Made by a program: the position numbers and the translations under genes
Notes under the pieces: model-generated
The model's database searches: none
What the model saw: only the letters and a program-made list of their open reading frames with translations
Told to the model about the DNA's origin: nothing
In this document: positions 7,617-42,347 of the stretch, in pieces
Position numbering within the stretch: position 1 is the stretch's first letter
How the letters are laid out: every line of letters starts with the position of its first letter
Assembly (NCBI RefSeq): GCF_024347355.1
Contig: NZ_AP025466.1
Span: 1,550,001-1,614,000 of the forward strand
From: Vibrio chagasii
GTDB taxonomy: Bacteria > Pseudomonadota > Gammaproteobacteria > Enterobacterales > Vibrionaceae
Direction: 5' to 3'
Length of the DNA: 64,000 nucleotides

Positions 7617-8908
7617 GGTTCATCGCGGATTAGCGGGAACTAAAAACAAAAACGGTAGTAAGTGATATGGTTTAGTCGCCAAACAAAAATCATACACAAA
7701 CTACCGTTTTCATGCCAAACCATACTTTCCTATCTTCATTCTGGGAAGGCTTTCATATAGTAAAGTCTCACCAGACAGCATCACTTATTACCCTGACTCT
7801 TAAACCCAACTCTGAGGCTAAGTGCCTTTGTGGTCTCGAGGCCGAGGCTATTCATGAGTATCAATGGCGTCATGTAAAAGAGGCCATGTTGCTCGGTGTT
7901 CCTGTTGAACTTTCCGTTCAAACACGAAGAATTAAGTGTCGTGTCTGCGGCATAAAAACAGAGTCTCTATCTTGGTTAGAGCCTTATGCTCGTATAACGA
8001 AGCGCTTAAAAAGTTATATAGAACAACTGCTGCCTCTTCTTCCCATTAAGCATATCTCCCAGTTAACAAGCGTACATTGGCACACCATTAAAGAGATAGA
8101 TAAACGCCGACTTCCACGAGTGGTACCGTCAATGAAATGGGAGGGGCTAAGGCAACTCGTCATGGATGAGTTCGCTATCTTTAAAGGACATAGGTATGCC
8201 ACGGTCATTGCTGACGCTAAGACGCACCAAGTCATTTGGATAGGGTTAGGCTGTAGCCGCAAGGACATACGACCGTTCTTCGAGCTGTTAGGCAAGCATG
8301 GCAATAATATCGAAGCGGTCGCGATGGACATGAATACGGCTTTTGACCTTGAAGTTCAAGCACATTGCCCGAACGCAAAAATCGTTTACGACTTATTCCA
8401 TGTTGTTGCTTAGTTCGGTCGTGAGGTCATGGATAGAGTCAGAGTCGACCAAGCCAACAAACTCAAGCAAGATAAAAAAGCGAGGCAATGGGTCAAGCGT
8501 TCACGCTGGGTGTTGTTGAAAAATAGGGGCAACTTAAATACACAGCAAGACAGCTATCTTACAGAAATATTGAATATCAATAAGGACTTAATGACCACTT
8601 ACATCCTCGGAGCACAACTCAAAGAGCTTTGGTATTGTGAATCAGAAGTGCATGCCAAAGGGCTCTGGGATACGTGGTGGGCACAAGTACAAGAGAGTGG
8701 GATTAAGCCATTAAAAGAGTTCGCACGAAAACTGAGTCCTTATCTTCACGGCATTCTCGCATCGGCAAGTTATCCGCTCAACACCTGCACATTGGAAGGG
8801 ATAAACAACAAGATAAAGCTAATCAAGCGAATGGGATATGGGTATCGAGATACAGACTACTTCTTCTTGAAGATAAAAGCGGCTTTCCCCGGAAAGCCGC
8901 GATGAACC
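7617..8908 (+). mobile_element. ISL3-family insertion sequence, copy 1 (1292 bp)
   Basis: Terminal inverted repeats begin GGTTCATCGCGG at both ends. Flanks are eight T residues on each side (7609-7616 and 8909-8916), consistent with the 8-bp duplication of ISL3 elements. It has exactly the same length as copy 2 (41056-42347) but differs at many scattered positions, so the two are not a fresh duplication of one another. The right end is a perfect hairpin (GCGGCTTTCC / GGAAAGCCGC) overlapping the transposase stop. Confidence 0.93.
7712..8905 (+). pseudogene. ISL3-family transposase interrupted by an amber stop
   Basis: A 397-codon ISL3 transposase frame is broken by TAG at 8411-8413, where the intact copy at 41151 has AAG (Lys). 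The pieces 7712-8413 and 8429-8905 are in the same frame, so one substitution explains the break. The N-terminal zinc-finger cysteines (CLCG and CRVCG) and the catalytic-core motifs VMDEFAIFKGHRYAT and AVAMDMNTAFDLEV lie before the stop. The C-terminal Glu region (TLEGINNKIK) lies after it. The protein is probably inactive unless supplied in trans by copy 2. Confidence 0.93.
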
Positions 8909-10506: not shown

Positions 10507-11340
10507 TTATTGTTGACCCCAGTTGTCCGCTTCGATTTTCGCTAGTGCTTTCGCTGCTTTTTGCAGTGCAGGCAAAAACTTAATCGCTTCATCTGGCTTC
10601 ACTCGAATCACAGGTGCTTGAATTGCTAAACCAAGGTTGGATTGACCGGTTGGTGATGGGATGAGTACCGCAATACACACCAAACCTGGAAGAAACTCTT
10701 CATCGTCAATAGCATAGCCTTGGATCTTCGCTTCTTCGATATCTTGTTCTAGAACGGAGTAGTCGGTAATGGTTTTTACTGTGTACTGCGTCAGAGGCAC
10801 ATTCTCGATCAGTCGTCTGCGCTGTGATTTCGACATGTGAGCCAAAAACAGTTTGCCGGTAGCCGAGCAATGCACAGGAACGCGAGAACCTGGTTGGAGG
10901 TGGAAACGAAGTGGGGCTTCCGTTTCTGCACGGTCAAGGTAGATGATCTCGCCGCTTGATAGCGCTGTCAGGTTGCAGCTTTCGCCAACTTCTGCACGCA
11001 GGTTTTCAAGAATCGTGCGTCTTGCACTGTGCATAGTGCTATTGAAGAGTAGGTTTTCGGCCAGTTTTCTGAGTCGAATACCTGAGCTGTAGTGCTTATC
11101 GTCACCATCTCTTTGAATGATGCCTGCTGATTCCAGTTGTTGCAGCATGCGGTGTAACGTCGGTTTCGGTAGCCCGGTTTCTTCGACTAATCCTTGAAGA
11201 GAAATGAATTCGTCTTTCTGTGCGATTACCTCTAATAGAGCAAAAAGTCGAAGAGTTGGCGTATCTCCTTGAACTTGTGGTGTTTCTGTTTGCATACAGT
11301 GATTCATCCTTGCGATATGTCTATGTGTAAGAGTGTACAT
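10507..11340 (-). CDS. IclR-family transcriptional regulator
   Basis: A winged-helix domain (about residues 26-85; LVEETGLPKPTLHRMLQQLESAGII) is followed by an IclR effector domain (about 95-270) containing VPVHCSATGKLFLA. It is divergent from pta, and the shared gap contains AT-rich motifs, so it probably controls pta and the rest of the taurine genes. Known xsc clusters usually use a MocR-type TauR, so an IclR here would be a substitution. The start at 11340 is the longest option; the ATG at 11295 has a better AAGGA ribosome-binding site. Confidence 0.9.
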   Translation of the reverse strand: MYTLTHRHIARMNHCMQTETPQVQGDTPTLRLFALLEVIAQKDEFISLQGLVEETGLPKPTLHRMLQQLESAGIIQRDGDDKHYSSGIRLRKLAENLLFNSTMHSARRTILENLRAEVGESCNLTALSSGEIIYLDRAETEAPLRFHLQPGSRVPVHCSATGKLFLAHMSKSQRRRLIENVPLTQYTVKTITDYSVLEQDIEEAKIQGYAIDDEEFLPGLVCIAVLIPSPTGQSNLGLAIQAPVIRVKPDEAIKFLPALQKAAKALAKIEADNWGQQ

Positions 11341-11414: not shown

Positions 11415-11428
11415 ATGGAACAATTAAT
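11415..11428 (+). promoter_or_regulatory. Candidate operator motif before pta
   Basis: ATGGAACAATTAAT lies 20 bases before the pta start. Its core ATGGAACAATT recurs, inverted, upstream of xsc at 16252-16262. A shared motif before two genes of one pathway suggests a common regulator, plausibly the IclR protein. Confidence 0.35.
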
Positions 11429-11448
11429 CTCAATAAATGGAGTTTATC

Positions 11449-12522
11449 ATGAAGGCAATTGAACGGATTATTGATAAGGCTCACTTAGATCGTAAGCGCG
11501 TGGTGTTGAGCGAAGCGGAAGATCCTCGAGTGCTCGCCGCAGCACGATTAGCGATAGACAAACAGCTCGCCCATATCACGCTAGTGGGGGATGAGAAGGC
11601 GATTATTGAAGCCGCGCAGTTGCATCATATTAATCTTGCCGGTATTCACATTGTTTCACCTCAAACGTCGGCTCTGAAAGTCGTATTAGCTGAGCGCCTA
11701 TATGAGTTAAGAAAAGCCAAAGGCATGACGTATGAAGATGCTTTGGAGAAGGTTAAAGACCCACTTATTTTTGCCAACTTGATGGTGAGGGAAGGGTTAG
11801 TAGACGGCACGGTAAATGGTGCGGTGTATACCACTTCTGATGTGGTGCGAGCTGCACTGCAGATCATCGGCCCTGCTCCCGATAGCGAGTTGGTATCGAG
11901 TTTCTTCCTTATGATGTTGTGTGAGCCTTTCCATAATCTAAAAGGTGGTCTGATTTTCAGTGACTGTGGCTTGGTGATTAACCCCAATGAAACGGAGCTG
12001 GCATCAATCGCGGTCGCCGCTTCTCAAAGTGCTCAGGCATTGCTAATGGAAGAGCCTAAGTTGGCGATGCTTTCATTCTCCACCAACGGTAGTGCGAAAC
12101 ATGAGTCGGTGGACAAGGTGCGCAGTGCTGCGCAGATCGTGAAACAGCGTTGCCCTGGTATTGCGGTTGACCAAGATGTTCAGCTTGATGCCGCAATTGT
12201 CACCGAAATCGCGGCTAAAAAGTTGCCTGATTCCGAAGTGAAAGGTCAATCCAATGTGTTGATCTTCCCCAACCTCGAAGCGGGCAATATAGGTTACAAG
12301 TTGGCAGAAAGGTTAGGTGGTGCGGTCGCCATTGGTCCTTTGCTCCAAGGGTTGAATCAACCGGCCAATGACTTATCAAGAGGGTGCTGCGCAGAGGATA
12401 TCTTTAACGTCATTGCCGTTACCGCGCTACAAGCGCAGCAAGGGAAAGTGTCTGGCTCTAAGGCTGACACTGAAGCTAATGTTGAAGAAAGACAAGAGCC
12501 GACATTTGATTTTAGGTATTAA
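11449..12522 (+). CDS. pta: Phosphate acetyltransferase
   Basis: Converts acetyl phosphate plus CoA to acetyl-CoA. It is the short, single-domain type (357 residues) common in xsc clusters, not the 700-residue housekeeping Pta. Family motifs are visible: RVVLSEAEDPRVLAAA near the N-terminus, MVREGLVDGTVNGAVYTTSDVVRAALQIIG, MLSFSTNGSAKHE and DQDVQLDAAIV, and VLIFPNLEAGNIGYKLAERLGG. The ATG at 11449 is chosen because GGAG lies six bases before it, inside a longer frame opening at 11437. A sulfite-exporter-type gene follows 67 bp later. Confidence 0.95.
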   Translation: MKAIERIIDKAHLDRKRVVLSEAEDPRVLAAARLAIDKQLAHITLVGDEKAIIEAAQLHHINLAGIHIVSPQTSALKVVLAERLYELRKAKGMTYEDALEKVKDPLIFANLMVREGLVDGTVNGAVYTTSDVVRAALQIIGPAPDSELVSSFFLMMLCEPFHNLKGGLIFSDCGLVINPNETELASIAVAASQSAQALLMEEPKLAMLSFSTNGSAKHESVDKVRSAAQIVKQRCPGIAVDQDVQLDAAIVTEIAAKKLPDSEVKGQSNVLIFPNLEAGNIGYKLAERLGGAVAIGPLLQGLNQPANDLSRGCCAEDIFNVIAVTALQAQQGKVSGSKADTEANVEERQEPTFDFRY

Positions 12523-12589
12523 CATTAGTTGCTTAAACTAACGCTGATATGCACTCATATTACCCCAAATAACCTATTTAGGATTGTTA

Positions 12590-13357
12590 ATGGAGTTACC
12601 GGTTTTACTCGCCATTTTGGCCACTATTGCGCTAGGCACCTATTTTCAAACCGTCACGGGCTTTGGGTTAGGCATCATTGTGATTGGTTTGACGGTCAGC
12701 CTTAATCTAGTTTCCCTAAATGTTATTGCCGCGGTGGTGAGTATTGTCACCTTGTTCAATTGCTTGGTTGCTTTGATGGGCAAGCCGTTGCTTGGCGAGC
12801 TAAAAATCCTTGTGGTGTTGGTGATCGGTATTATTCCCGGCGTGTCACTTGGGGTGTTCTTGCTAGGCGAATTGAGCGAATCTGCAACGCATATCCTACG
12901 AGCTTTGTTAGGCGCTATGGTGCTATTCGCAGGCTTGAGTTTTATGTTCAAACCTAAAACTAGAACCCAACGCTCTACAACCCTGTCTTTTTTGGTGTCA
13001 GGGTTTAGCTCTGGTCTCGCGGGCGGGCTATTTGGTATGGCGGGTCCACCGATTGTTTATCATCTCTACAGGCAACCTTTTACGCTTGATTTAGTACGAA
13101 GCACACTGCTGATGGTGTTCGCTTGCACGTCGATGTCACGTACCGTGAATGTTTACGCTGCAGGCGATATGGAAGCAAGCATATTGTGGCTATCTGCGAT
13201 TGCTATTCCTTTGGTGGTGCTTGTCACCATGTTCGCGCGCCGCTTTCCGCCTCCCTTGTCGAATGACCAACTCAGAAAGTTAGTATTTATGGTGTTGATG
13301 TTGATTGGTGGGTATTTGATGGCCGTGTCGGCATGGTCATTGTTGGGCTCTTCATAA
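12590..13357 (+). CDS. TauE/SafE-family membrane exporter
   Basis: A membrane protein of about 255 residues with seven to eight hydrophobic segments, belonging to the sulfite exporter TauE/SafE family. The paired repeats typical of that family appear as GTYFQTVTGFGLGIIVIG near the N-terminus and SGFSSGLAGGLFGMAGPPIVYH near residues 140-165. It follows pta on the same strand and probably exports sulfite released by Xsc, or a sulfonate such as sulfoacetate. The ATG at 12590 has AGGA six bases upstream. Confidence 0.88.
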   Translation: MELPVLLAILATIALGTYFQTVTGFGLGIIVIGLTVSLNLVSLNVIAAVVSIVTLFNCLVALMGKPLLGELKILVVLVIGIIPGVSLGVFLLGELSESATHILRALLGAMVLFAGLSFMFKPKTRTQRSTTLSFLVSGFSSGLAGGLFGMAGPPIVYHLYRQPFTLDLVRSTLLMVFACTSMSRTVNVYAAGDMEASILWLSAIAIPLVVLVTMFARRFPPPLSNDQLRKLVFMVLMLIGGYLMAVSAWSLLGSS

Positions 13358-13406: not shown

Positions 13407-15128
13407 CTAAACACGCTTTAGCATCTCAAAGATTCCTCTACATAGTCCAAACAAGCAGCTCTCTTGAGTATCCAACGTGATGTTACTGCGATAATAGGGG
13501 CTTAAATCTACCCCCATTCCTACGCCGTGGATTTCAATATTATTCTTGGTCGTCTCGCGATCAATCACCTGTTTGAGGTGGTTGTCTAAATAGAATTGAT
13601 CATTGGCTGTGCTGGTGGCGGTATCCATCGGGCAACCGTCCGAAAACACAAACAAAACCTTTCGTTGTGCGCTGTGCTGCTGCAATCGCTGGCTGGCAAA
13701 CTGAACCGCTTCGCCATCAATTCCTTCTTTGAAGATGTCCGCTTTACGAAGGCTTGCAATACCGAGTCGAGCGCGCCTCCAATGGGTATCAAAATCCTTA
13801 AATACGATATGTCTAACCTCGTTTAAACGCCCGGGATGTTTCGGTTGGCCTTGTTTGAGCCACTGTCGGTAAACCTTGCCACCGTTCCAGTTGTTGGTGG
13901 TGAAGCCGATAATTTCAAAGGGGATATTGGCGAGTCCAACGGATTTGAGGATCGTATCCATTAGTAGGCTTAGCTTGTGGCTGTGTTTTTGCATCGACCC
14001 TGAACAGTCCATCAAAAACGTGATGGCACATTGGTGAGACGGGCCAATTTCAGGCTGATAAAAAAACGTACGGTCTAAAGGAGAAGTGATGAGCTTAGTG
14101 ATGGCAGTGGCGTTGACGATGCCTTCTTCTAGGTGTTCTTGGCGTCGAATTCGTTGTGGTGTGGCAACAAAACCAGACAGCATGGCGGCTAAGCGTCGGG
14201 TATTCACTTGTCTCGCCATCAAGTCATCAGTGAGTTTTTGTCTCAGTTCGAATAATAGGGCACGCCGGACGAGCTTATCTGCGGCGATCACTTGGTCAAA
14301 TTCTGAATTGAATACTTGATAATTAGCGCCTGACAATTCGAAGACCTTACTACTGCCAGTGATGTCCGCATCAATCTCTTCATCTTCTATGTCCCCATCA
14401 ACGATTAAAGCAAGTTGCGCGAGGATTTTAATGTCCTCTTCAACCGTTGGGGTGCTTGAGCTTTCACCCTCTTGTTCTTGGTTGATAAGTGCTTGTGCCA
14501 GAGACGCGAGCTCGTTGGCATAGTGAGCAAAACGCTGTTGATTGGCTCGATGTTCTTTTAATTGTTTTAGACAGCTACCAAATATAGGCACGATGCCTGC
14601 TCGAGTCGATTCAATGGTTTCAGCGATGGGATCCGAGACTGGAACACCCGTTAAGCGAGTGTGGATGACCTGCATTAATGTGAACAACAAAATACCAATG
14701 CGGGATTCAGTAAAGCCATTTTGATGATATTGATCGCTCCAATACGCAAAGTTGAACTGAATGCTCTTAGTGACGCCTTTTAGGTAAGCGGGAACTTGTG
14801 ACTCGATTCGTACCTGTTCGCAAAAATCGAATAGTAAACGCTCGACTTCATTTTTTGGGCGCAACGAATAGTGAAGTTCAGCATCAGAAAGCAACAGCCT
14901 CAATGCGGATGAGTCAATTTTACCGTTCATCAATAATTTACTGTTGATGAGCTCATGGCGTGACACAAAGGTGAGATCGTTGGTGTGTGCCGATAAGTGA
15001 TAACAAGGACGACTACCGTTGTAGAGGCGCTCTCCTCGGTAATTCAGGTTCAATTCACCGCTGATCGCTCTGGCAATCGACACGCCAATATCGAGGATCT
15101 TTTTCTGTTGGGAGGAAATATTAGCCAT
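13407..15128 (-). CDS. CobT-like VWA-domain protein
   Basis: At 573 residues it resembles the CobT subunit of aerobic cobaltochelatase. It has a long N-terminal region, a short acidic linker (about 215-255: EGESSSTP, DGDIEDEEIDADI) and a C-terminal von Willebrand A domain with the MIDAS motif D374-C-S-G-S378 and VFSDGCPMD. It lies three bases downstream of a CobS-like AAA+ gene, the standard CobS-CobT order. No CobN chelatase subunit or other B12 gene is present, and vibrios are not known to use the aerobic B12 route. It more likely works with its AAA+ partner as a MoxR/VWA-type activating chaperone. The client is unknown; neighbours Xsc and TauXY are candidates. Confidence 0.85.
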   Translation of the reverse strand: MANISSQQKKILDIGVSIARAISGELNLNYRGERLYNGSRPCYHLSAHTNDLTFVSRHELINSKLLMNGKIDSSALRLLLSDAELHYSLRPKNEVERLLFDFCEQVRIESQVPAYLKGVTKSIQFNFAYWSDQYHQNGFTESRIGILLFTLMQVIHTRLTGVPVSDPIAETIESTRAGIVPIFGSCLKQLKEHRANQQRFAHYANELASLAQALINQEQEGESSSTPTVEEDIKILAQLALIVDGDIEDEEIDADITGSSKVFELSGANYQVFNSEFDQVIAADKLVRRALLFELRQKLTDDLMARQVNTRRLAAMLSGFVATPQRIRRQEHLEEGIVNATAITKLITSPLDRTFFYQPEIGPSHQCAITFLMDCSGSMQKHSHKLSLLMDTILKSVGLANIPFEIIGFTTNNWNGGKVYRQWLKQGQPKHPGRLNEVRHIVFKDFDTHWRRARLGIASLRKADIFKEGIDGEAVQFASQRLQQHSAQRKVLFVFSDGCPMDTATSTANDQFYLDNHLKQVIDRETTKNNIEIHGVGMGVDLSPYYRSNITLDTQESCLFGLCRGIFEMLKRV

Positions 15129-15131
15129 CGA

Positions 15132-16112
15132 TTAAAACTCCGACTGAGCATAGCTCTGAGTATGCTCCTCTAGAGCTTCACCAAAGCAGCGGAAGTAATA
15201 TTCGCGAACTAGCTCCTTCTCTTCGTCTTCACAACGGTTGAGGAACGACAGCCTAAATGCAGTGGCTACATTCTTGAATATTCGAATATTCTCAGCCCAT
15301 GTGATTACTGTTCTTGGCGACATAACCGTTGATAAATCGCCGGCTCTAAATCCATTTCGCGTTAAACCGGCGGTGGCGATCATTTTCTCTATTAACTGAT
15401 TACCGCTTTCATTGTTTAGCTCAGGACACTTTGATAGAACGATCTTGGTTTCATGTTGTGGGTCTAAATAGTTAAGTGTCGCGATGATGTTCCATCGGTC
15501 AAGTTGGCTATGGTTAAGCACTTGAGTACCAGAATACAAACCGGAAAAGTTACCTAAACCGAGAGTATTGCAGGTCGCAAACAGACGGAAAGAAGGGTGG
15601 GGAGTGATCACTCTGTTTTGCTCGAGCGAAGTGTATTTTCCGTCTTGCTCTAACAGTTGCTGAATCACAAACATCACATCAGGTCGGCCCGCATCGTATT
15701 CGTCCAATACTAATGCGATGGGTTGCTGAATGCTTTGTGGAAGAATGCCTTCCTTAAACTCCGTTACCTGCATTCCATCTTTAATGACGATGCTATCTTT
15801 GCCAATGAAATCCAATCGGCTTAAGTGCCCATCTAGGTTGATCCTCAAGCATGGCCAATTTAATCGTGCTGCCACTTGCTCTATATGAGAAGACTTGCCG
15901 GTTCCGTGTGTGCCTTGTATTAACGTGCGACGGTTAGATGTGAAGCCCGCTAATATTGCGAGCGTGACTTCAGGATCAAAACAGTAGTTGGGATCGATCT
16001 TCGGTACGTACTCTCCCGCCTTCTCAAAGGCCAACACCGTTAAATCGCTATCGATGCCGAAATGCTCTCTTACACTTACCTGTTGCGTTGGTCGCAATTC
16101 CTCATTGTTCAT
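15132..16112 (-). CDS. CobS-like AAA+ ATPase
   Basis: A 326-residue AAA+ ATPase matching CobS over its whole length. The N-terminal HFGIDSDLTVLAFEKAGEYVPKID-type segment is followed by Walker A (G67-THGTGK-S74), Walker B (ALVLDEYD, D137/E138), FATCNTLGLGNFSGLYSGTQ and QLDRWNI. CobS and CobT form the ATPase part of the three-subunit aerobic cobaltochelatase, which also needs CobN; none is seen here. The gene is first in a two-gene leftward operon that diverges from xsc across 265 bp, so it may share control with the taurine genes. Confidence 0.88.
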   Translation of the reverse strand: MNNEELRPTQQVSVREHFGIDSDLTVLAFEKAGEYVPKIDPNYCFDPEVTLAILAGFTSNRRTLIQGTHGTGKSSHIEQVAARLNWPCLRINLDGHLSRLDFIGKDSIVIKDGMQVTEFKEGILPQSIQQPIALVLDEYDAGRPDVMFVIQQLLEQDGKYTSLEQNRVITPHPSFRLFATCNTLGLGNFSGLYSGTQVLNHSQLDRWNIIATLNYLDPQHETKIVLSKCPELNNESGNQLIEKMIATAGLTRNGFRAGDLSTVMSPRTVITWAENIRIFKNVATAFRLSFLNRCEDEEKELVREYYFRCFGEALEEHTQSYAQSEF

Positions 16113-16238
16113 TCTTTATTCCCCATTATCGCTTCCATGACTGCTGTGATTTTTGAACTGCTATCGATTATTAACCTCTCTCTTGGAGTTAACGACACTT
16201 TTTTGTACGAAAAACTACCAATAATGTGATCCAGTTTT

Positions 16239-16348
16239 ATTAATTAGAATGAATTGTTCCATTTTAACGCAAAAAGTTGACGCGCAAAAAATCTACTACT
16301 AAGGTGAATTTGAATTCAAAAAAGAGACGATTCATTCCGAAAAATGAA
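16239..16348 (+). promoter_or_regulatory. Candidate xsc promoter and operators
   Basis: The 265-bp gap between cobS-like and xsc contains AATTGTTCCAT (16252-16262, shared inverted with the pta upstream region). It also holds a possible -35 TTGACG (16277-16282) and a dyad TTCATT-N6-AATGAA (16331-16348). A purine-rich AAGGAGAATGG lies before the xsc ATG. The -10 element is weak. Assignments are tentative. Confidence 0.35.
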
Positions 16349-16377
16349 ATTTAGGTTAACTCAAGGAGAATGGAAGA

Positions 16378-18189
16378 ATGAGTGAGCAAGAAAAACGTAC
16401 GGTTGTTTCCGGCACAGTAACAATGACACCATCAGAAGCGTTCGTTGAAACTATGGTCGCCAATGATGTCACCGATATGTTCGGCATCATGGGTTCGGCA
16501 TTTATGGATGCAATGGATATCTTTGCTCCTGCTGGCATTCGATTGGTCCCAGTGGTACACGAGCAAGGTGCTGCTCACATGGCAGATGGTTACTCTCGAG
16601 TCTCTGGTCGCCACGGTGTCGTTATCGGTCAGAATGGACCGGGTATCAGTAACTGTGTAACAGCAATCGCAGCAGCGTATTGGGCACACAGCCCTGTTGT
16701 AATTGTGACGCCAGAGACCGGCACTAAAACAATGGGCTTAGGTGGTTTCCAAGAGTGTAACCAACTTCCAATGTTCCAAGAGTTTACTAAGTATCAAGGG
16801 CATGTAACGCACCCTGACCGTATGGCGGAGTACACAGGGCGATGCTTTGACCGCGCAATGAGCGAGATGGGGCCTACTCAACTTAACATCCCACGTGACT
16901 ACTTCTACGGTGAGACTCAAACCGAGATCCCTCAACCGGCACGCTTAGACCGTGGCCCAGGTGGTGAAAAATCTCTGAATGAAGCGGCAGACCTGATTGC
17001 TGAAGCGAAATTCCCTGTCATCATTTCTGGTGGCGGTGTGGTAATGGCTGACGCGGTTCAAGAGTGTGCAGCGCTGGCTGAAAGACTGGGTGCGCCAGTA
17101 GTAAACAGCTACCTACACAATGACTCGTTCCCAGCAAGTCACCCATTATGGTGTGGTCCACTAGGTTACCAAGGTTCGAAGGCTGCAATGAAGTTGATGG
17201 CTCAAGCGGACGTGGTTATTGCTCTTGGTACTCGCCTTGGTCCATTCGGCACATTGCCTCAACACGGTATGGATTACTGGCCGAAGAACGCAAAAATCAT
17301 TCAGATTGATGCGGACAACAAGATGCTTGGCTTGGTTAAGAAGATCTCTGTGGGTATTTGTGGTGATGCGAAAGCGGCTGCAGTGGCATTAACCGAGAGA
17401 TTGGAAGGTCGTGCACTGCTGTGTGATGACAACAAAGGTGCTCGCCAAGACACCGTCGCAACAGAAAAAGCGCTGTGGGAAAAAGAGCTTGATGAGTGGA
17501 CGCACGAGCGTGACTCATTCAGCTTAGACATGATCGAAGAAAACTCGCATGAGACTCCTTTCTCTGGTGGTGAATATCTTCACCCACGCCAAGTACTTCG
17601 TGAACTTGAAAAAGCGATGCCAGAAGACGTAATGGTCTCAACGGATATCGGTAACATCAACTCGGTCGCAAACAGCTACTTACGTTTTGAAAAACCGCGA
17701 AGCTTCTTTGCGGCAATGAGTTTCGGTAACTGTGGCTATGCGTTCCCGACCATCATTGGTGCGAAAGCAGCAGCACCTCATCGTCCAGCTATCTCTTACG
17801 CAGGCGACGGCGCGTGGGGCATGAGCCTGATGGAGACCATGACGTGTGTTCGTCACAACATTCCTGTGACTGCGGTGGTATTCCACAACCGTCAATGGGG
17901 CGCAGAGAAGAAGAACCAAGTCGACTTCTACAACCGACGTTTTGTCGCTGGTGAACTAGACAACCAAAGCTTTGCAGAGATCGCTCGAGCAATGGGTGCT
18001 GAAGGTATCACGGTTGATAAGCTAGAAGATGTTGGCCCAACTCTACAAAAAGCCATCGACATGCAAATGAACGAAGGCAAAACAACCATCATTGAGATCA
18101 TGTGTACTCAAGAACTGGGCGACCCGTTCCGTCGAGACGCATTGTCTAAACCGGTTCGTTTCCTAGATAAATACAAAGATTACGTATAA
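16378..18189 (+). CDS. xsc: Sulfoacetaldehyde acetyltransferase
   Basis: A thiamine-diphosphate enzyme that converts sulfoacetaldehyde and phosphate to acetyl phosphate and sulfite, the desulfonation step of taurine breakdown. It has 603 residues, as expected for Xsc. The probable ThDP-activating Glu is E62 in PVVHEQGAAHMADGYSR. The cofactor motif runs from G476-D-G to N504 (GDGAWGMSLM ... VVFHN). The C-terminal CTQELGDPFRRDALSKPVR segment is typical of Xsc. Pta, the next enzyme, is encoded 5 kb upstream and TauXY 1.5 kb downstream. AAGGAGAATGG precedes the ATG. Confidence 0.97.
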   Translation: MSEQEKRTVVSGTVTMTPSEAFVETMVANDVTDMFGIMGSAFMDAMDIFAPAGIRLVPVVHEQGAAHMADGYSRVSGRHGVVIGQNGPGISNCVTAIAAAYWAHSPVVIVTPETGTKTMGLGGFQECNQLPMFQEFTKYQGHVTHPDRMAEYTGRCFDRAMSEMGPTQLNIPRDYFYGETQTEIPQPARLDRGPGGEKSLNEAADLIAEAKFPVIISGGGVVMADAVQECAALAERLGAPVVNSYLHNDSFPASHPLWCGPLGYQGSKAAMKLMAQADVVIALGTRLGPFGTLPQHGMDYWPKNAKIIQIDADNKMLGLVKKISVGICGDAKAAAVALTERLEGRALLCDDNKGARQDTVATEKALWEKELDEWTHERDSFSLDMIEENSHETPFSGGEYLHPRQVLRELEKAMPEDVMVSTDIGNINSVANSYLRFEKPRSFFAAMSFGNCGYAFPTIIGAKAAAPHRPAISYAGDGAWGMSLMETMTCVRHNIPVTAVVFHNRQWGAEKKNQVDFYNRRFVAGELDNQSFAEIARAMGAEGITVDKLEDVGPTLQKAIDMQMNEGKTTIIEIMCTQELGDPFRRDALSKPVRFLDKYKDYV

Positions 18190-18565: not shown

Positions 18566-19372
18566 ATGAACAATAAACGGTATATAAGCTCACTCAAAGA
18601 ACTGTATCAAATAATTGATTCATATATTAAAGAGTGCAACGAACCTTGTGGGTTGATTTATAACGTTTGTGATTACGAAAACAATAACTTGATGCCTAGC
18701 TTGGGTCGTTCTAATCGTAAGAACTTACGCCGAGTCGAACAAGATTTGCTTTCAACGGTTCGTATCTATGGTGGGCATTCATTGCACTCTCACGACATAA
18801 ATGATTGGTTGCTGATGTGCTTAGCAAAGAAGCAGGGATTTCCCACTCGTTTACTTGAATGGAGCGATAACCTGCTTAATGCGCTGTGGGCTTTGTGTCA
18901 TAGTCAGAGTAAAGACTGCATTAATATTACTAAAGCAATTGATTTTGAGAGAGTTAGTGATTTCTTTACACCATGTGGTGTTGAGAAAACTCAGATATTT
19001 CATGTTGTTGATTGTGATCAGCAAGAACAACGTAAGGACAAATGGTATTCCATTCATCCGTTTAAGGAAGGTTGCAATGATGCCATTCAACCTTTGTACG
19101 ACGAGCAAGGATATTCAAACGGTCTAGTATCCGTTCATGTTCTTCCGTCAGCCAAAGTAAATCTGATAAAGGAGTTAATATCCATGAATGTGTTAAATGA
19201 ACCTACAGAGTATAAAGAAGAGACACTGGTTGATTTGAAAAATGAATCACACGTCGATGGAAATAAGGTTATGGGTAAAGATGGAAGCAACATCGAATTA
19301 CAAGTTAATACTCATGATCGAACTTTGGAACAATATGGACGAAAGTACCATCAAGATTTTGACTTCGACTAA
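18566..19372 (+). CDS. FRG-domain protein, motif-degenerate
   Basis: A 268-residue protein with the core of an FRG domain: LMPSLGR (about 48-54) and AKKQGFPTRLLEWSDNLLNALWAL (about 91-114), matching the family's hyGxPTRLLDWT..pLvAL. The name-giving F/Y-R-G near the N-terminus is replaced by LIYNV. The C-terminal 100 residues are charged with no recognised domain. FRG proteins are poorly understood and often occur in accessory regions. The gene is AT-rich compared with xsc and tauY and is flanked by AT-rich, hairpin-bearing gaps, so it may be a later insertion in the taurine cluster. Confidence 0.75.
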   Translation: MNNKRYISSLKELYQIIDSYIKECNEPCGLIYNVCDYENNNLMPSLGRSNRKNLRRVEQDLLSTVRIYGGHSLHSHDINDWLLMCLAKKQGFPTRLLEWSDNLLNALWALCHSQSKDCINITKAIDFERVSDFFTPCGVEKTQIFHVVDCDQQEQRKDKWYSIHPFKEGCNDAIQPLYDEQGYSNGLVSVHVLPSAKVNLIKELISMNVLNEPTEYKEETLVDLKNESHVDGNKVMGKDGSNIELQVNTHDRTLEQYGRKYHQDFDFD

Positions 19373-19657: not shown

Positions 19658-20083
19658 ATGAATATGCAAACCAATGCAGCGACATTCGTGCTGGAAAACC
19701 AAGTCGACACAGCCTTTTTACAGTCATTCAGTGATGCTTGGAATAACCATGATATCGAAGCATTAATGTCGTTCATGACTGAAGATTGTGTATTCCATAC
19801 TGTGGCTGGCGAAGGCTTAGTTGGAAATACTATCGAAGGGTACGAAGCGGTTCGAAAGAGCTTTGAATTGGTTTGGCAGAACTTCCCAGACGCCGCTTGG
19901 AGCGATCCTGTCCACTTTGTGTGCGGTGATCGCGCTGTGAGTGAATCAACGTTTTCTGCTACAAACCCGGATGGCAGCATTATTGAAGCTCGCATGGTTG
20001 ATGTATTTACTCTGAAAGACGGAAAAATCAGCGTAAAAAATGCCTTCCGTAAAACAAGACCTCTTTTGACTCCCACAAGCTAG
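19658..20083 (+). CDS. tauX: TauX-type taurine dehydrogenase small subunit (SnoaL/NTF2-like)
   Basis: A 141-residue SnoaL/NTF2-like protein: AFLQSFSDAWNNHDIEALMSFMTEDCVFHT, then EAVRKSFELVWQNFPDAAW and RMVDVFTLKDGKISVKNAF, the usual cone-shaped fold. In alphaproteobacterial taurine clusters a small gene of this kind precedes tauY and is called the small subunit of taurine dehydrogenase. Here it lies 48 bp before tauY on the same strand. AAGGA precedes the ATG. Its biochemical role in TauXY is not well defined. Confidence 0.8.
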   Translation: MNMQTNAATFVLENQVDTAFLQSFSDAWNNHDIEALMSFMTEDCVFHTVAGEGLVGNTIEGYEAVRKSFELVWQNFPDAAWSDPVHFVCGDRAVSESTFSATNPDGSIIEARMVDVFTLKDGKISVKNAFRKTRPLLTPTS

Positions 20084-20131: not shown

Positions 20132-21598
20132 ATGAGTTTAGTAATGGAACAACCAGCTGCCGATGTGCAGCCAAAGGTGAAAAGCACCCAAGCACAAGAA
20201 AGTACACAAGCAAAAGATAGATACGATCCAAAGTACGATCCATTGAAGGATAAAACGCCAGGTCATGGTAAAGAATACGCCCCAACGTATTGGGTAGATA
20301 CTGCAGGTGCCCCACCTGAAGATGATGGCCCAATCACATCGGACATGGATGTCGATGTGGCGATCATCGGTTCAGGCTTTACTGGCCTAAGCACTGCGAT
20401 ACACCTTGCTGAGATGTATGGCATTAAAGCGACAGTGATTGAAGCGAACCGTTCAAGCTGGGGATGCAGCACTCGAAACGGTGGTCAAGCGCAGTGTGCC
20501 TCTGGGCGTTTGAAGCGTTCACAATGGATTGAACGCTGGGGCCTCGAAACGGCGCTAAAAATGCACCGCGAATGTGTCGATGGCATGGAAACCTTCAAGT
20601 CACTGATCAAAGACATCGATTGTGACCCACAACCTGGCGGTCATTTATATGTTGCTCACCGTCCAAAAGTGATGGCAACACTCGAGAAAGAAGCCAAGTT
20701 GTTGCGCGACACGTTTGACTACGATGCGCAGATCTTAGATGCAGAAACCGTAAAGCGTGATTACGTTGGAGACCAAGAAGCAGCAGGCGCGATGCATGAG
20801 CCAGAAGGGATTGGCATTCATGCAGGGAAGTTGGCGTTTGGTTATCTAAGAAAGGCACGAGCACTCGGCGTTAAAGTTCATCCATCGAGTCCAGTTATGG
20901 GCTGGGAGACTCGTGGCGGTGTGCATTACCTGAAAACGCCTGGTGGCGTTGTTAAAGCGCGTTCTGTCGGTGTTTGTACGGGTGGGTATACCAGTCAAGG
21001 CTTGCATTCAGAGCTTAAAAACCGCCTGTTGCCAGTACTGTCTAACTCAATGGTCACACGTCCGCTAACTCAAGAAGAAATCGCCGCGTGTAATTTCAAA
21101 ACTAATCAAGTGATTACTGATACTCGAATTCTGCGTCACTACTACCGTTTGTTACCGGATAACCGAGTACAGATAGGTACACGCAGTGCTATCAGTGGCA
21201 AAAACGCACCTGAAAAGAAATATGAAGACATGCTAAGAGCGGACCTTACTCGAAAATTCCCGTCTCTCGATCAGATCAAAATCGATTATTCATGGTGGGG
21301 TTGGGTGGACGTCAGCCACGACATGATGCCGAGGATTTATCAACCGAATCCAAAACAATCCATCTTCTACGCCCTTGGATATGGCGGTAATGGCGTGATG
21401 TATTCCGCTCAAGCGGGTAAGCGTCTTGCTCAGTGGATTGCAGGCGAAGGTCACACGCTCGACCTACCAATATTTGAATCAAAACTTCCGTTCCCCAATG
21501 TGAGGGAAGTGGTGGAATCAGAGATGTTTGCGCCGTTTCGAAGAATGGGGCAGCGGTTCCTTTATCAGTGGTATTCGTTAAAGGATGAAAGGCTGTAA
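20132..21598 (+). CDS. tauY: TauY-type taurine dehydrogenase large subunit (FAD)
   Basis: An FAD-dependent amine oxidoreductase of the DAO family, 488 residues. An extended hydrophilic N-terminus (1-72) leads to PTYWVDTAG and PPEDDGPI, typical of TauY. The dinucleotide-binding motif follows (DVAIIGSGFTG, G80/G82/G85) with CSTRNGGQ, and a C-terminal YALGYGGNGVMYSAQAGK FAD-contact segment. It would oxidatively deaminate taurine to sulfoacetaldehyde and ammonium, feeding Xsc. AGGAGAG precedes the ATG. The TRAP genes follow about 120 bp later. Confidence 0.88.
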   Translation: MSLVMEQPAADVQPKVKSTQAQESTQAKDRYDPKYDPLKDKTPGHGKEYAPTYWVDTAGAPPEDDGPITSDMDVDVAIIGSGFTGLSTAIHLAEMYGIKATVIEANRSSWGCSTRNGGQAQCASGRLKRSQWIERWGLETALKMHRECVDGMETFKSLIKDIDCDPQPGGHLYVAHRPKVMATLEKEAKLLRDTFDYDAQILDAETVKRDYVGDQEAAGAMHEPEGIGIHAGKLAFGYLRKARALGVKVHPSSPVMGWETRGGVHYLKTPGGVVKARSVGVCTGGYTSQGLHSELKNRLLPVLSNSMVTRPLTQEEIAACNFKTNQVITDTRILRHYYRLLPDNRVQIGTRSAISGKNAPEKKYEDMLRADLTRKFPSLDQIKIDYSWWGWVDVSHDMMPRIYQPNPKQSIFYALGYGGNGVMYSAQAGKRLAQWIAGEGHTLDLPIFESKLPFPNVREVVESEMFAPFRRMGQRFLYQWYSLKDERL

Positions 21599-21715
21599 CT
21601 ACCCGAACATTGTTTCCAAAATAGGGAAATAGAACTACGACCAGGAAAGTTGTACCAGGTCACCTTGTGAGCAAAGTACAGGCAGGAAGTCTGTATGAAA
21701 GGAAAGGTTAAGACT

Positions 21716-22717
21716 ATGAAATTTATTAAAAATAAAATTATTGCTGGTGTCACCATTGTAGCAACAGCGGTGCTATCTAATACCGCGGCAGCAGCGAATT
21801 TTAAAATAGCCATCGGCGATGCTGCTGGTGGTACGCAGTGGGAATTAGCGACATCGTTCTCTGAACTCATGGAGCAAAAAACAGACGGTAAAGTGAAAAT
21901 CGATCTGTTCCCGAATGGTCAGTTAGGCAACGAGCAAGACACAGTAAATGATGCGGCAATCGGTCTTCTTGATTTCTCTGTACTGGCGATCAACAACGTC
22001 ACCCCTTTTTCTCCGACGGTTGGTCTACTGACTATGCCTTACGTTATTCAGAGCGCAGAAGAAGCAGTGCTACTGACTCAAGGTCAAGTAGGCCAAGACT
22101 TAGTCGATAATACGATTCGTGATGCTGGTGTTCGTATTGTCGGTTGGGCTTATTCTGGCTTTAGGGTTTTGACTAACTCGAAAAAGCCTGTCGCTTCCCC
22201 AGAAGATCTTAAAGGGCTCGTGATTCGTGTTCCTCGTAACGAAATCATGATCGCTTCTTACCAAGCATGGGGCGTAAACCCAACGCCAATGGCTTGGTCT
22301 GAAACCTTTACTGGCCTGCAACAGGGCGTGGTAGATGGTCAAGATAACCCTTACATCACAGTGCATGCGATGAAGTTTAACGAAGTACAAAAGTACGTGA
22401 CCAACATTCGCTACATTTTCTCTCTAGAACCTCTCATCGTGAGTGAAACGGTCTTCCAACAGCAAACACCTGAAATGCAGAAGATCATTCTTGAAGCAGG
22501 TCAGGAAGCGACAGAGCACAGCTTCGCTTATTTAGAAAATACGGAAAACCAAATTCGTGAAGAGCTACAAGCGAAGGGCATGGTATTCACAGACCCAGCA
22601 GACAACGAGCAAGAGTGGATCAACAAGGTGACTAAATCAGTTTGGCCTAAGTTCTACTCAAGCATCGGAGGCAAAGACAAGCTAGACGACGTTCTTGAGT
22701 TACTAGGTAGAAAGTAA
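21716..22717 (+). CDS. tauK: TRAP transporter substrate-binding protein (taurine-type DctP)
   Basis: Periplasmic binding protein of a TRAP transporter. The signal peptide runs from MKFIKNKIIAG to TAAAA, with mature residues from about 28. The family's ligand-binding segments are visible: GTQWELATSFSELM, PNGQLGNEQD, LKGLVIRVPRNEIM and WSETFTGLQQGVVDGQDNPY, where the Arg of IRVPRN normally contacts a carboxylate or sulfonate. The ATG at 21716 is preferred over 21695 because it starts the signal peptide and has GGAAAGG upstream. The position after tauXY suggests taurine import, as for tauKLM of Rhodobacter. Confidence 0.88.
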   Translation: MKFIKNKIIAGVTIVATAVLSNTAAAANFKIAIGDAAGGTQWELATSFSELMEQKTDGKVKIDLFPNGQLGNEQDTVNDAAIGLLDFSVLAINNVTPFSPTVGLLTMPYVIQSAEEAVLLTQGQVGQDLVDNTIRDAGVRIVGWAYSGFRVLTNSKKPVASPEDLKGLVIRVPRNEIMIASYQAWGVNPTPMAWSETFTGLQQGVVDGQDNPYITVHAMKFNEVQKYVTNIRYIFSLEPLIVSETVFQQQTPEMQKIILEAGQEATEHSFAYLENTENQIREELQAKGMVFTDPADNEQEWINKVTKSVWPKFYSSIGGKDKLDDVLELLGRK

Positions 22718-22880
22718 CGATTAGATTCGCCCTATCTGCTGTTCTCCGCGACTTAATCACCTAGCGATAGAACAGTGAGATAGGGCATTTACATGGCTGT
22801 ACTCGTTGAGCTGTTCTGTACCTGATCTTTTAGGACCGTGAGCGACTGGTTGTCATGTGAAAATCAACATTGGAGGTTAT

Positions 22881-23423
22881 ATGTCAGTCGCTAAAACAAT
22901 AAAAAAACACCTGAACAACATTGAGGAATATACATGTTGTTTGTTGCTTGCAAGCTTTGTCCTGTTGCTGTTTACACAAATCCTGACGCGTCAGCTATTC
23001 GACTACTCTATCCCGTGGGGGGATGAGGTCGCTACTTACATGTTCGTTTGGTTCGCTTATCTAGGGGCTGTTGTGGCGGCCAAGATGTCGGCACACAACC
23101 GAGTGAGTTTTCACTTCAAATTATTTCCGCCAATCGTGCAAACCGTCAGTGAAACCATCGCTGATTTCTTATGGCTCTGCTTCAACGGTTACTTTGTCTA
23201 TCTCAGTTATGACTTCGTGTTCAACAAAATGAACCTGTTTTGGAAGTCTCAGACCACAGGTATCCCGATGAAGTATTTCTACATGATTTTACCTATCGCG
23301 TTTTCCCTGATGATGATTCGAATTATCTGGAACAACTATGAGCGCCTATTCAAAGGTGCAACCAATGAAGATCCAGAAGTGAAAGAGCTGCGAAAAATGA
23401 CTGCACAAAAGTCTATGCAGTAG
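22881..23423 (+). CDS. tauL: TRAP transporter small permease (DctQ)
   Basis: A 180-residue four-helix DctQ subunit. The conserved SIPWGDEVATYMFVWFAYLGA segment after the first helix is present. A strong GGAGG six bases before the ATG at 22881 decides the start over the in-frame GTG at 22857. The gene lies 163 bp after the binding protein, a gap that may allow a higher level of binding protein than permease. Confidence 0.88.
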   Translation: MSVAKTIKKHLNNIEEYTCCLLLASFVLLLFTQILTRQLFDYSIPWGDEVATYMFVWFAYLGAVVAAKMSAHNRVSFHFKLFPPIVQTVSETIADFLWLCFNGYFVYLSYDFVFNKMNLFWKSQTTGIPMKYFYMILPIAFSLMMIRIIWNNYERLFKGATNEDPEVKELRKMTAQKSMQ

Positions 23424-23457
23424 TCACAGAGAATAGTCGTAATAGAGAGATGTAATA

Positions 23458-24798
23458 ATGGAATCCTATTTAACTCTAATTTTATTTGGTGGCTTCTTAA
23501 CCCTGTTAATTCTAGGTGCACCAATCACAGTATCACTGGCCGGCGCTTCGATGGCGGCCTATATGTTGCTCGACAAAAATCCTATCGCACTGGTACAAAT
23601 CGCATTTACTTCGGTAGGTAACTTCCCGCTCATGGCTCTGCCTGCTTTTGTGCTTGCGGGCGCATTAATGGAGGCGGCTGGGATCTCCAAACGTTTGGTT
23701 GATATTGCCGAAAGCTTAGCTGGGCCCGTAACAGGTGGACTTGGTGCGGCAACGGTAATGGCCTGTCTTTTCTTCGGTGCTATCTCTGGCTCTGGCCCAG
23801 CGACAACCGCCGCGGTAGGTATGCTAATGGTGCCTGCGATGGTTAAGCGTGACTACGATAAGAGCTACGCATCGGCCGTTACGGCTGCATCCGGAGGCTT
23901 GGGGATTATTATTCCACCATCCATTCCTTTAGTTATTTTTGGTATATCTGCGATGGGCTTAATGGCGCCACCAGAAGCCATTGCACAACATGGCCAGTTT
24001 GCTTCTTTATCGATTCCAAAGCTGTTTGTCGCCGGGGTTGTGCCGGGTTTCATCATGGCTTCGACACTGGTACTGACTAACTATTTCATTGCTAAGCGCG
24101 AAGGCTACAAAGGGCTTACTGAAACCTGGTCATTTGGTGATGTAAGGCATTACTTGCGTCGAGGTTTATGGTCGATACTAGCGCCATTTTTGATTCTTGG
24201 CGGTATCTACAGCGGTATGTTCACACCAACAGAGTCTGCGGTTGTGGCAATTTTTTATTCGCTGTTTGTGGGTGTATTTATTCACCGCGAGTTGTCATTC
24301 AAAAGCGTGATGAAATCTCTATCAACCACGACGTGGATCACCGGACGTGTATTGCTGATCCTGTTTGCTGCTACCGTGTTTGGTCGTTTACTGATTGAAC
24401 AAAAAATTCCAGTGGTGGTGGCTGAATCTTTGCTCAGTTTTACTGACAACATGTACATGGTGTGGGCGCTTACGATTACTTTGCTGTTGTTCATCGGTAT
24501 GTTCATGGAAACCTTAGCAGCGATTATGATCATCGTGCCGGTTCTATTACCAATCATGTACATGTTAGGCGCGGATCCTACCCACGTGGGTATTGTGGTC
24601 GTATGTACCTTATCGATAGGCTTTGCTACGCCGCCACTTGGCGAAAACATCTTTGTTGCCTCGGGAATAGGGGGTTCCACGGTTGAGCAAATCACCGCGA
24701 AGATCCATCCCTTTGTTCTTGCTTCTGTTGTGGGCGTTTTCGTTATCGCTTTCTTCCCACAAATTACGCTTTGGCTTCCGTCCTTAGTGGGCTATTAG
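23458..24798 (+). CDS. tauM: TRAP transporter large permease (DctM)
   Basis: A 446-residue membrane protein of 12-13 helices with DctM-family motifs: FPLMALPAFVLAGALMEAAGIS, FFGAISGSGPATTAAVG, GGLGIIIPPSIPLVIFG and, near the C-terminus, STLSIGFATPPLGENIFVASG-type sequence. It drives sodium-coupled uptake with DctP and DctQ. It starts 34 bp after the small permease gene, so both are probably translated from one message. Confidence 0.92.
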   Translation: MESYLTLILFGGFLTLLILGAPITVSLAGASMAAYMLLDKNPIALVQIAFTSVGNFPLMALPAFVLAGALMEAAGISKRLVDIAESLAGPVTGGLGAATVMACLFFGAISGSGPATTAAVGMLMVPAMVKRDYDKSYASAVTAASGGLGIIIPPSIPLVIFGISAMGLMAPPEAIAQHGQFASLSIPKLFVAGVVPGFIMASTLVLTNYFIAKREGYKGLTETWSFGDVRHYLRRGLWSILAPFLILGGIYSGMFTPTESAVVAIFYSLFVGVFIHRELSFKSVMKSLSTTTWITGRVLLILFAATVFGRLLIEQKIPVVVAESLLSFTDNMYMVWALTITLLLFIGMFMETLAAIMIIVPVLLPIMYMLGADPTHVGIVVVCTLSIGFATPPLGENIFVASGIGGSTVEQITAKIHPFVLASVVGVFVIAFFPQITLWLPSLVGY

Positions 24799-41055: not shown

Positions 41056-42347
41056 GGTTCATCGCGGATTAGCGGGAACTAAAAACAAAAACGGTAGTAA
41101 GTGATATGGTTTAGTCGCCAAACAAAAATCATACACAAACTACCGTTTTCATGCCGAATCATACTTTCCTATCTTCATTCTGGGAAGGCTTTCAAGTCGT
41201 AAAGTCTCACCAGACAGCATCACTTATTACCCTGACTCTTGAACCGAACTCTGAGGCTAAGTGCCTTTGTGGTCTCGAGGCCGAGGCTATTCATGAGTAT
41301 CAATGGCGTCATGTAAAAGAAGCCATGTTGCTCGGTGTTCCTGTTGTTCTTTCTGTTCAAACGCGAAGAATCAAGTGCCGTGAGTGTGGCATAAAAACAG
41401 AATCTCTATCTTGGTTGGAGCCTTATGCTCGTATAACGAAGCGCTTAAGAAGCTATATAGAACAATTACTGCCTCTTCTTCCTATTAAGCATATCTCCCG
41501 GTTAACGAACGTTCATTGGCACACCATTAAAGAGATAGATAAATCCCGACTTAGAAAAGTGGTACCGCCAGTGAAATGGGAGGAGCTAAGGCAACTCGTC
41601 ATGGACGAGTTCGCCATCTTTAAAGGGCATCGATATGCCACGGTCATCGCTGACGCTAAGACACACCAAGTCATTTGGATAGGGTTAGGCCGAAGCCGTA
41701 AGGACATACGGCCGTTCTTCGAGCAACTAGGCAAGCATGGCAATAATATCGAAGCGGTCGCAATGGACATGAATACGGCTTTTGATCTTGAAGTTAAAGC
41801 ACACTGTCCGAACGCAAAAATCGTTTACGACTTATTCCATGTTGTTGCTAAGTTCGGTCGAGAGGTGATGGATAGAGTCAGAGTCGACCAAGCCAACAAA
41901 CTCAAGCAAGATAAAAAAGCGAGGCAATGGATCAAGCGCTCACGCTGGGTGTTGCTAAAAAACAGGGGTAATTTGAATACACAGCAAAACAGCTATCTTA
42001 CCGAAATATTGAATATCAATAAGGACTTAATGACCACTTATATACTCGGAGCACAACTCAAAGAGCTTTGGTATTGTGAATCAGAAGTACATGCTAAAGG
42101 GCTCTGGGAGGCGTGGTGGGCACAAGTACAAGAGAGTGGAATTAAGCCATTGAAAGAGTTCGCACGAAAACTAAGGCCTTATCTTCACGGCATTATCGCA
42201 TCTGCGAGTTATCCGCTTAACACCTGCACATTGGAAGGGATAAACAACAAGATAAAGCTAATCAAGCGAATGGGATATGGGTACCGAGATACAGACTACT
42301 TCTTCTTGAAGATAAAAGCGGCTTTCCCCGGAAAGCCGCGATGAACC
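41056..42347 (+). mobile_element. ISL3-family insertion sequence, copy 2 (1292 bp)
   Basis: Terminal repeats begin GGTTCATCGCGG as in copy 1, and length is identical. The 8-bp flanks differ (TTTTCTTT left, TTTATTTA right), so no exact target duplication remains. An adjacent deletion or recombination on the right side is likely. The element ends in the same transposase-overlapping hairpin. Confidence 0.92.
41151..42344 (+). CDS. ISL3-family transposase, intact
   Basis: A 397-residue transposase. The N-terminal zinc finger (CLCG and CRECG) is followed by an HTH region and the DDE core: VMDEFAIFKGHRYATVIAD, AVAMDMNTAFDLEV and, near the C-terminus, TLEGINNKIKLIKRMGYGYRD. There is no internal stop at Lys 234, where copy 1 has an amber codon. 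The TGA stop lies inside the right inverted repeat. Confidence 0.95.
   Translation: MPNHTFLSSFWEGFQVVKSHQTASLITLTLEPNSEAKCLCGLEAEAIHEYQWRHVKEAMLLGVPVVLSVQTRRIKCRECGIKTESLSWLEPYARITKRLRSYIEQLLPLLPIKHISRLTNVHWHTIKEIDKSRLRKVVPPVKWEELRQLVMDEFAIFKGHRYATVIADAKTHQVIWIGLGRSRKDIRPFFEQLGKHGNNIEAVAMDMNTAFDLEVKAHCPNAKIVYDLFHVVAKFGREVMDRVRVDQANKLKQDKKARQWIKRSRWVLLKNRGNLNTQQNSYLTEILNINKDLMTTYILGAQLKELWYCESEVHAKGLWEAWWAQVQESGIKPLKEFARKLRPYLHGIIASASYPLNTCTLEGINNKIKLIKRMGYGYRDTDYFFLKIKAAFPGKPR

Follow-up and report, generated by a model that had tools for sequence, protein, structure and literature searches.

What are two genes that resemble the motor subunits of a cobaltochelatase doing in the middle of a sulfonate-degradation locus? 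The question is raised by a stretch of 64,000 nucleotides of Vibrio chagasii (contig NZ_AP025466.1, positions 1,550,001 to 1,614,000; the window, hereafter), in which a cobS-like and a cobT-like gene, 3 bp apart, sit between the exporter gene tauE and xsc, convergent with the former and divergent from the latter. Xsc is a central carbon-sulfur bond-breaking enzyme in taurine, isethionate and sulfoacetate degradation. This arrangement, described in an original prediction made from the sequence alone, is confirmed by the open reading frames (ORFs) and by profile matches; the same prediction called the pair an orphan and saw in it an activating or metal-loading chaperone for Xsc, for TauXY or for an unlinked client. 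We report here that cobST follows Xsc, and one clade of Xsc specifically, and we propose that the pair is probably a dedicated, dispensable two-part AAA+/VWA chaperone, activase-like, for the Xsc of this clade. The elements concerned are the following.

15132..16112, minus strand: cobS-like AAA+ ATPase gene, 326 amino acids, Walker A motif GTHGTGKS read by eye
13407..15128, minus strand: cobT-like gene, 573 amino acids, N-terminal CobT domain and C-terminal VWA domain with a DxSxS motif
16378..18189, plus strand: xsc, sulfoacetaldehyde acetyltransferase of the Xsc-A clade, the proposed client
16113..16377, no strand: region upstream of both divergent genes, cobS and xsc

Throughout, Xsc-A denotes proteins with 79% or more identity to the Xsc of the window and Xsc-B those at about 60-74% (labels of this report), and the surveys searched for CobT, not CobS. 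Among 148 genomes of the genus, CobT is present in 24 and xsc in 23, and each of these 23 has both genes on a single contig at a distance of about 3 kb; because this is so in every xsc genome, the Vibrio arrangement is not a matter of chance. The one CobT without xsc amounts to a piece of 41 residues in an assembly (G119) that is 79% complete and 7% contaminated, and it was excluded from later counts. The class survey (369 genomes), in which Xsc matches at 48% identity or less were put aside as other enzymes (10 genomes), found Xsc-A in 7 genomes, 5 of which are also the only carriers of window-type CobT (at least 455 bits); the remaining 14 CobT rows score at most 341 bits. In the order of G372 (160 genomes) CobT occurs in 5, Xsc-A in 6 and both in 5, a sixth CobT match (G817, 323 bits) belonging to the other CobT type, and in the family of G890 (170 genomes) the figures are 55 for CobT (at least 497 bits), 55 for Xsc-A and 54 for both, the family proteins, G890 excepted, being classed by score and identity rather than by placement in a tree. 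Xsc was listed only at E<=1e-200 in the order, family and phylum surveys, the last of which concerned the Xsc side only and found such matches in 4 of 249 genomes, all of one class. Both genes share a contig in all 54 family genomes, within 10 kb by start coordinates in 46 and at 15-29 kb in 8, and both are there on separate contigs in G413 and G195. Fisher values for the family survey disregard relatedness and are not taken here as probabilities. When distinct genomes are pooled (G001, G372 and G890 recur across surveys, and the named loci overlap with the G-numbered genomes and were not added to them), Xsc-A accompanies this CobT in 84 of 85 carriers, this CobT is found in 84 of 88 Xsc-A genomes, and none of the 21 genomes with Xsc-B but without Xsc-A (4 + 14 + 3) has window-type CobT. 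Co-occurrence and linkage are established by these counts: the association of cobST with xsc anticipated for related genomes is near-perfect in all four surveys (genus, class, order and family), an unlinked client is disfavoured for that reason, and the word orphan does not hold, since the pair keeps one constant partner, xsc.

The closest named relatives are Vibrio or Vibrionales (14 loci, CobT identity 70-97%), and cobS and xsc adjoin cobT in all 14; cobS adjoins cobT in 15/15 loci compared and in the 48/48 family regions that contain xsc and cobT. The genome of L015, a metagenome-assembled genome of Chromatiaceae, has Xsc-A at 84% identity, almost surely on the same contig as its cobST. Plasmids tell a similar story: in a collection of 72,556 records, at least 80% of the CobT query was covered in 8, seven of which (H1-H7, 36-42% identity) have xsc within about 6 kb, and near full-length window-type CobT lies on 7 of the 10 xsc-bearing records; the CobT of the eighth record (H8, Methylobacterium, 28%) is separated from the xsc-linked type in the CobT tree. 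One copy of xsc stands on each side of cobST in Paraburkholderia phymatum (L064, 6938-8767 and 13611-15419), and likewise in G979 (L128, from 5237 and from 11825).

The association is with a clade rather than with the enzyme at large. The window Xsc exceeds the TIGR03457 cut-off (1067.5 against 676.4 bits), and so do the two Xsc-B proteins tested (976.4 and 883.6 bits). In a tree of 41 Xsc proteins, whose rows were partly chosen via cobST, all 18 rows accompanied by cobST fall within one clade of 22 (support of 100 in the Shimodaira-Hasegawa-like approximate likelihood ratio test, SH-aLRT; stem 0.38), together with four rows labelled as lacking cobST, one of them, Rhodococcus, on plasmid evidence; three changes suffice to explain the presence of cobST on this tree, against a mean of 13.6 after shuffling. 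Fifteen residues are fixed in Xsc-A and occur in none of the 19 Xsc-B rows (at two of these positions Xsc-B has gaps), and several lie in or beside what we take to be the thiamine-diphosphate motifs (S91 in NGPGIS, N428, and A475 before GDG).

Could the pair nevertheless be the motor of a true cobaltochelatase, serving a CobN or BchH-like subunit encoded elsewhere? Its homology with CobS and CobT is clear. The Pfam models CobS_N, AAA_5, CobT and CobT_C (VWA) all match above cut-off, so that the CobST-type domain architecture is present; the VWA motif residues D374, S376 and S378 show no variation across 16 aligned rows; and the nearest solved structures by sequence are CobT chains for the CobT-like protein and, for the CobS-like protein, CobS first, then midasin (E 2e-31), then weakly CbbQ and NorQ (E 5e-8 to 2e-3). 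Moreover, CobN is present in 4 of the 8 carriers tested outside Vibrio (G291, G890, G799, G692). However, both proteins stay under the equivalog cut-offs, which settles their subfamily status: the CobS-like protein reaches 465.8 bits against TIGR01650 (E=7.4e-140, cut-off 558.55) and the CobT-like protein 234.9 bits against TIGR01651 (E=2e-69, cut-off 759.05). A CobN (PF02514) profile search covering 23 genus carriers and 8 others (54 further family carriers lay outside it), made on relatives of the source strain rather than on its own assembly, gave no match in any of the 23 Vibrio-genus carriers, the nearest genome G001 among them, nor in four of the eight others (G413, G372, G195, G749), so that the proposal of a role outside B12 synthesis is not refuted by a CobN elsewhere in these genomes. 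The CobTs, too, form a separate clade: in a tree of 39 rows, which took in 5 of the 7 xsc-linked plasmid CobTs and was built by a quick method without bootstrap (one row, L050, is long), the xsc-linked type and 8 unplaced relatives split from 15 others (SH-aLRT 100, branch 1.76). That other side includes the urease-linked Pandoraea pair described below and is not a clean CobN-linked set, because, of the 9 genomes with the other CobT type in which CobN was sought, only 4 have it. Judged from gene content, a B12 role is rejected for Vibrio, where the cobaltochelatase explanation is nearly refuted; overall, we consider it extremely improbable.

The other CobT type occurs without a CobN match in G338, G324, G241, G431 and G165, of which G324 and G431 are genomes of 1.2-1.3 Mb, and given these five genomes more CobST pairs without CobN may exist. 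A phage origin was also considered and rejected: 33 of 50,697 phage records match, none across 80% of the protein, and the 8 phage matches listed align about half of it at 25-28% identity.

If not CobN, which gene of the locus does the pair follow? The neighbours to be weighed against xsc are these.

10507..11340, minus strand: IclR-type regulator, matching IclR-family models under their equivalog cut-offs
11437..12522, plus strand: pta, phosphate acetyltransferase (TIGR00651, 349 bits, above cut-off)
12584..13357, plus strand: tauE, TauE/SafE-family exporter gene (PF01925)
19658..20083, plus strand: SnoaL-fold protein, taken as TauX
20132..21598, plus strand: FAD oxidoreductase-like protein, taken as TauY, with zero models above cut-off
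21695..24798, plus strand: TRAP-type transporter, the first ORF matching DctP models above cut-off, the other two ORFs named by eye

The names TauX and TauY are our assumption, applied by similarity; a Caballeronia record labels their counterparts an NTF2-family protein and an FAD-binding oxidoreductase. Among 59 family regions fetched, 48 hold both xsc and cobT, and in these pta was found in 46, iclR in 43, tauX in 40, tauY in 37, a GMC (IseJ-like) gene in 36, tauE in 25, sauS in 12 and sauT in 10, all lower bounds, given the similarity thresholds and the 20-kb stretches used. In Caballeronia, SauS lies above the curated SauS model and the IseJ-like protein above a choline-dehydrogenase subfamily model.

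A chelatase-like machine that loads metal into TauXY, or into some other enzyme of the locus that uses a metal or cofactor, would agree with the frequency of tauX and tauY and with the homology of CobST to a metal-chelatase motor, as well as with the insertion of iron by NorQD reported in the retrieved part of PMC13036017. However, cobST is present at loci whose examined stretches yielded no tauXY, namely those of C. campinensis (where a GMC gene accompanies xsc, pta, tauE and cobST), G291, G799, L144, L145 and G195. Conversely, tauXY-like genes occur without cobST in the Xsc-B loci L148 and L149, which also have GMC- and iclR-like genes, and L086, where tauX stands with tauY in two pieces; a search for window-type CobT in these three genomes returned none. 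TauXY is disfavoured as a client because each of cobST and tauXY occurs without the other, and the metal-loading explanation is quite improbable in our judgement.

More weight must be given to the idea that cobST works for some other function of the Xsc-A module (the handling or export of sulfite, for example, or Pta or the IclR regulator) and not for Xsc itself. The Xsc reaction yields sulfite, the tallies of pta, iclR and tauE are high, and pta and tauE, like cobST, are rare or not found near Xsc-B, so that they too go with Xsc-A rather than with Xsc-B. On the other hand, tauE was not found in 23 of the 48 regions, and IclR-like matches turn up in Xsc-B regions that have no cobST (9 of 15). 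In L144 and L145, xsc, cobS and cobT are the only genes found among the types tallied, pta being among those not found, although inspection by eye shows that L144 has, among other genes, ORFs resembling an exporter and sulfite dehydrogenases. Similarly, G291 (xsc and cobST, with tauXY not found within 20 kb) and G372 keep cobST beside a phosphotransacylase of another family (63.7 and 82.8 bits against TIGR00651, cut-off 311.2). Pta as a client is disfavoured on these grounds, and service to another part of the module appears rather unlikely overall.

Other genes of the window show features of their own. Between xsc and tauX in Vibrio lies a gene for an FRG-domain protein (18566-19372), with a weak match in Photobacterium (27%), whose sequence diverges more quickly than those of the genes around it (48.5% in V. 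mediterranei, against 97.7% for xsc). A 190-aa ORF at 25977-26549 matches a single Pfam model, that of the malate synthase G alpha-beta insertion domain, here as an isolated domain, and a transposase-like gene in two ORF pieces and a very similar unbroken copy are found at 7712-8905 and 41151-42344 (by eye).

Do the two genes travel together for a reason, or did cobST join an xsc operon once and be carried along, by inheritance and transfer, as a passenger without functional tie? Few changes are needed on the Xsc tree, and the cluster is found on replicons of several genera, as such a history would have it. Nonetheless, the ORFs are intact across several families, the pair is kept where it is not adjacent to xsc (the eight family genomes with wider spacing) and even on other contigs (G413, G195), and a palindrome precedes cobS also away from xsc; the passenger explanation is therefore very improbable. 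The palindrome has two exact sites in the window.

16246..16260, no strand: operator-like palindrome in the cobS-xsc spacer, conserved in the Vibrio loci scanned
11415..11428, no strand: second exact copy of the palindrome core, between iclR and pta

Elsewhere in the window, the 13 bases that are fixed in the core recur exactly at one place only, the gap separating iclR from pta. The pattern was picked after inspection of the window, where at two mismatches it has 5 matches, a number reached by 14 of 100 shuffles and so not above chance, and it is the two exact matches that stand out. The comparison across loci is fairer, and it establishes that the palindrome is shared: a copy with at most two mismatches falls in the 300-bp stretch ahead of cobS in 28 of the 63 loci compared and ahead of xsc in 35 of 64, while among random windows 30 of 1440 contain one. 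No p-value is attached to these numbers, because the genomes are related, neighbouring cobS and xsc have their upstream region in common, and some random windows could include real sites. In Caballeronia it precedes cobS though xsc starts about 2 kb off, past two iclR genes, and in B. multivorans cobS and xsc are each preceded by a copy of their own. The IclR-type protein is its presumed, candidate reader. A scan around cobST for sigma-70 promoters and terminators gave no signal above shuffled sequence.

Several observations weigh against a chaperone dedicated to Xsc-A. Xsc-A occurs without this CobT in G190, G331, G874 and G1038, and three similar Rhodococcus plasmids bear xsc and no near full-length CobT (plasmids only, chromosomes being outside that search). 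G959 has CobT and no detected xsc, on a 4,957-bp contig that stops near pta. Beside xsc, pta (46/48) and iclR (43/48) are nearly as constant as cobST, and the 15 Xsc-B regions have pta-like matches in 3 and tauE in 0. Within Xsc-A no residue pattern tracks cobST, a single position apart, the losses being too few to test; CobT evolves much faster than Xsc (70% against 96% identity between the window and V. coralliilyticus); and the palindrome has at least four mismatches before cobS in 25 of 63 loci. The Xsc-A genomes and Rhodococcus plasmids without this CobT mean, therefore, that the pair is not strictly required. This is compatible with the reading we prefer: a helper that lineages can do without, as in the four genomes lacking the pair, would suit the activation of a self-inhibited enzyme, and would suit the insertion of an obligatory cofactor less well. 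Rubisco, for instance, occurs also without activase.

How might such a chaperone work? The structure model of CobT has a predicted local distance difference test (pLDDT) value of 76.1 and a predicted template modelling score (pTM) of 0.49, and its top six Foldseek matches are chains G of NorQ-NorD complexes (E 4.8e-8 to 3.9e-5, template modelling score by query 0.23-0.31), which presumably correspond to the VWA domain of NorD. By analogy, the CobS-like protein would be expected to assemble into a ring-shaped ATPase, on which the CobT-like subunit would dock via its VWA domain, its N-terminal domain presenting the client as has been proposed for NorD with nitric oxide reductase and for CbbO with Rubisco. 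Driven by ATP hydrolysis, the ring might then pull on its CobT-like partner so that Xsc-A is remodelled, the most likely outcome being either that inhibited active sites are freed or that assembly of the thiamine-diphosphate enzyme is completed. We infer that a ring forms, that the pair touches Xsc directly and that it remodels the enzyme; likewise, of the two roles first offered, activation or remodelling of Xsc would be favoured and metal loading less so. Whether the CobST-like clade amounts to an "Xsc activase", in which an AAA+/VWA motor powered by ATP would rescue or mature a thiamine-diphosphate enzyme of sulfonate carbon catabolism, we regard as evenly balanced.

Among the matches listed in the open-licence literature, outside which classical sulfonate work largely falls, no paper ties a CobST-like pair to Xsc. 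As far as the retrieved passages go, the "cobS" and "cobT" of PMC2265553 and PMC12879404 are late B12-synthesis genes encoding different proteins, the Ruegeria CobS of PMC4334477 has a locus tag (SPO2853) far from the taurine-gene tags of that organism, and viral CobST was proposed to hijack host CobN (PMC8651126). The xsc-linked case suggests, however, that CobST homologues need not imply CobN. With the pair in 84 of 88 Xsc-A genomes and no literature link found, a part of the pathway seems to be absent from current maps. The association also explains annotations such as "cobaltochelatase CobT" in bacteria without CobN, labels that can mislead predictions of B12 pathways, and it gives a CobST-type motor a directly testable client. 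If true, an Xsc activase would represent a new client class for the AAA+/VWA chaperone family and a repurposing of CobST homologues as enzyme chaperones.

Among known systems, CobNST is the closest in sequence. The window pair shares its domain order, the window CobS is 61% identical to that of S. meliloti, and CobS and CobT are the best sequence matches among solved structures (e.g., chains 9uka and 9ujv); it differs in scoring under both equivalog cut-offs, in its Vibrio carriers without CobN, in its separate CobT clade and in its partner gene, xsc. Adjacent genes for an AAA+ ATPase and a VWA protein, as in pairs of the CbbQO/NorQD type, are found in the window. The Rubisco activase CbbQ/CbbO is likewise an AAA+ ring with a VWA partner serving one metabolic enzyme, and is named with RavA/ViaA for fumarate reductase in the retrieved passages of PMC9976466, but the proposed client of the window pair is a thiamine-diphosphate enzyme and its CobS matches CbbQ only weakly. 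NorQ/NorD, also an AAA+/VWA pair, supplies the best Foldseek matches of the CobT model. In the retrieved passages of PMC9976466 and PMC13036017 the VWA finger of NorD goes into the NorQ ring and NorQ remodels the NorD linker required for metal insertion, NorQD being described as an iron insertion machine (PMC13036017); thus NorQD puts metal into its target, whereas for the window pair a remodelling role is proposed. Finally, plasmid pPO70-1 of Pandoraea oxalativorans carries a CobST-like pair (L068, 6741-9578) right after ureG, in a urease cluster made of ureD, ureA-C, a His-rich UreE-like ORF and ureG, ureF not being annotated in that stretch. It resembles the window pair in standing in a catabolic cluster with no B12 gene annotated in the stretch, and differs in that its CobT belongs on the other side of the tree from the xsc-linked type; possibly, it represents a second repurposing of CobST as an enzyme chaperone.

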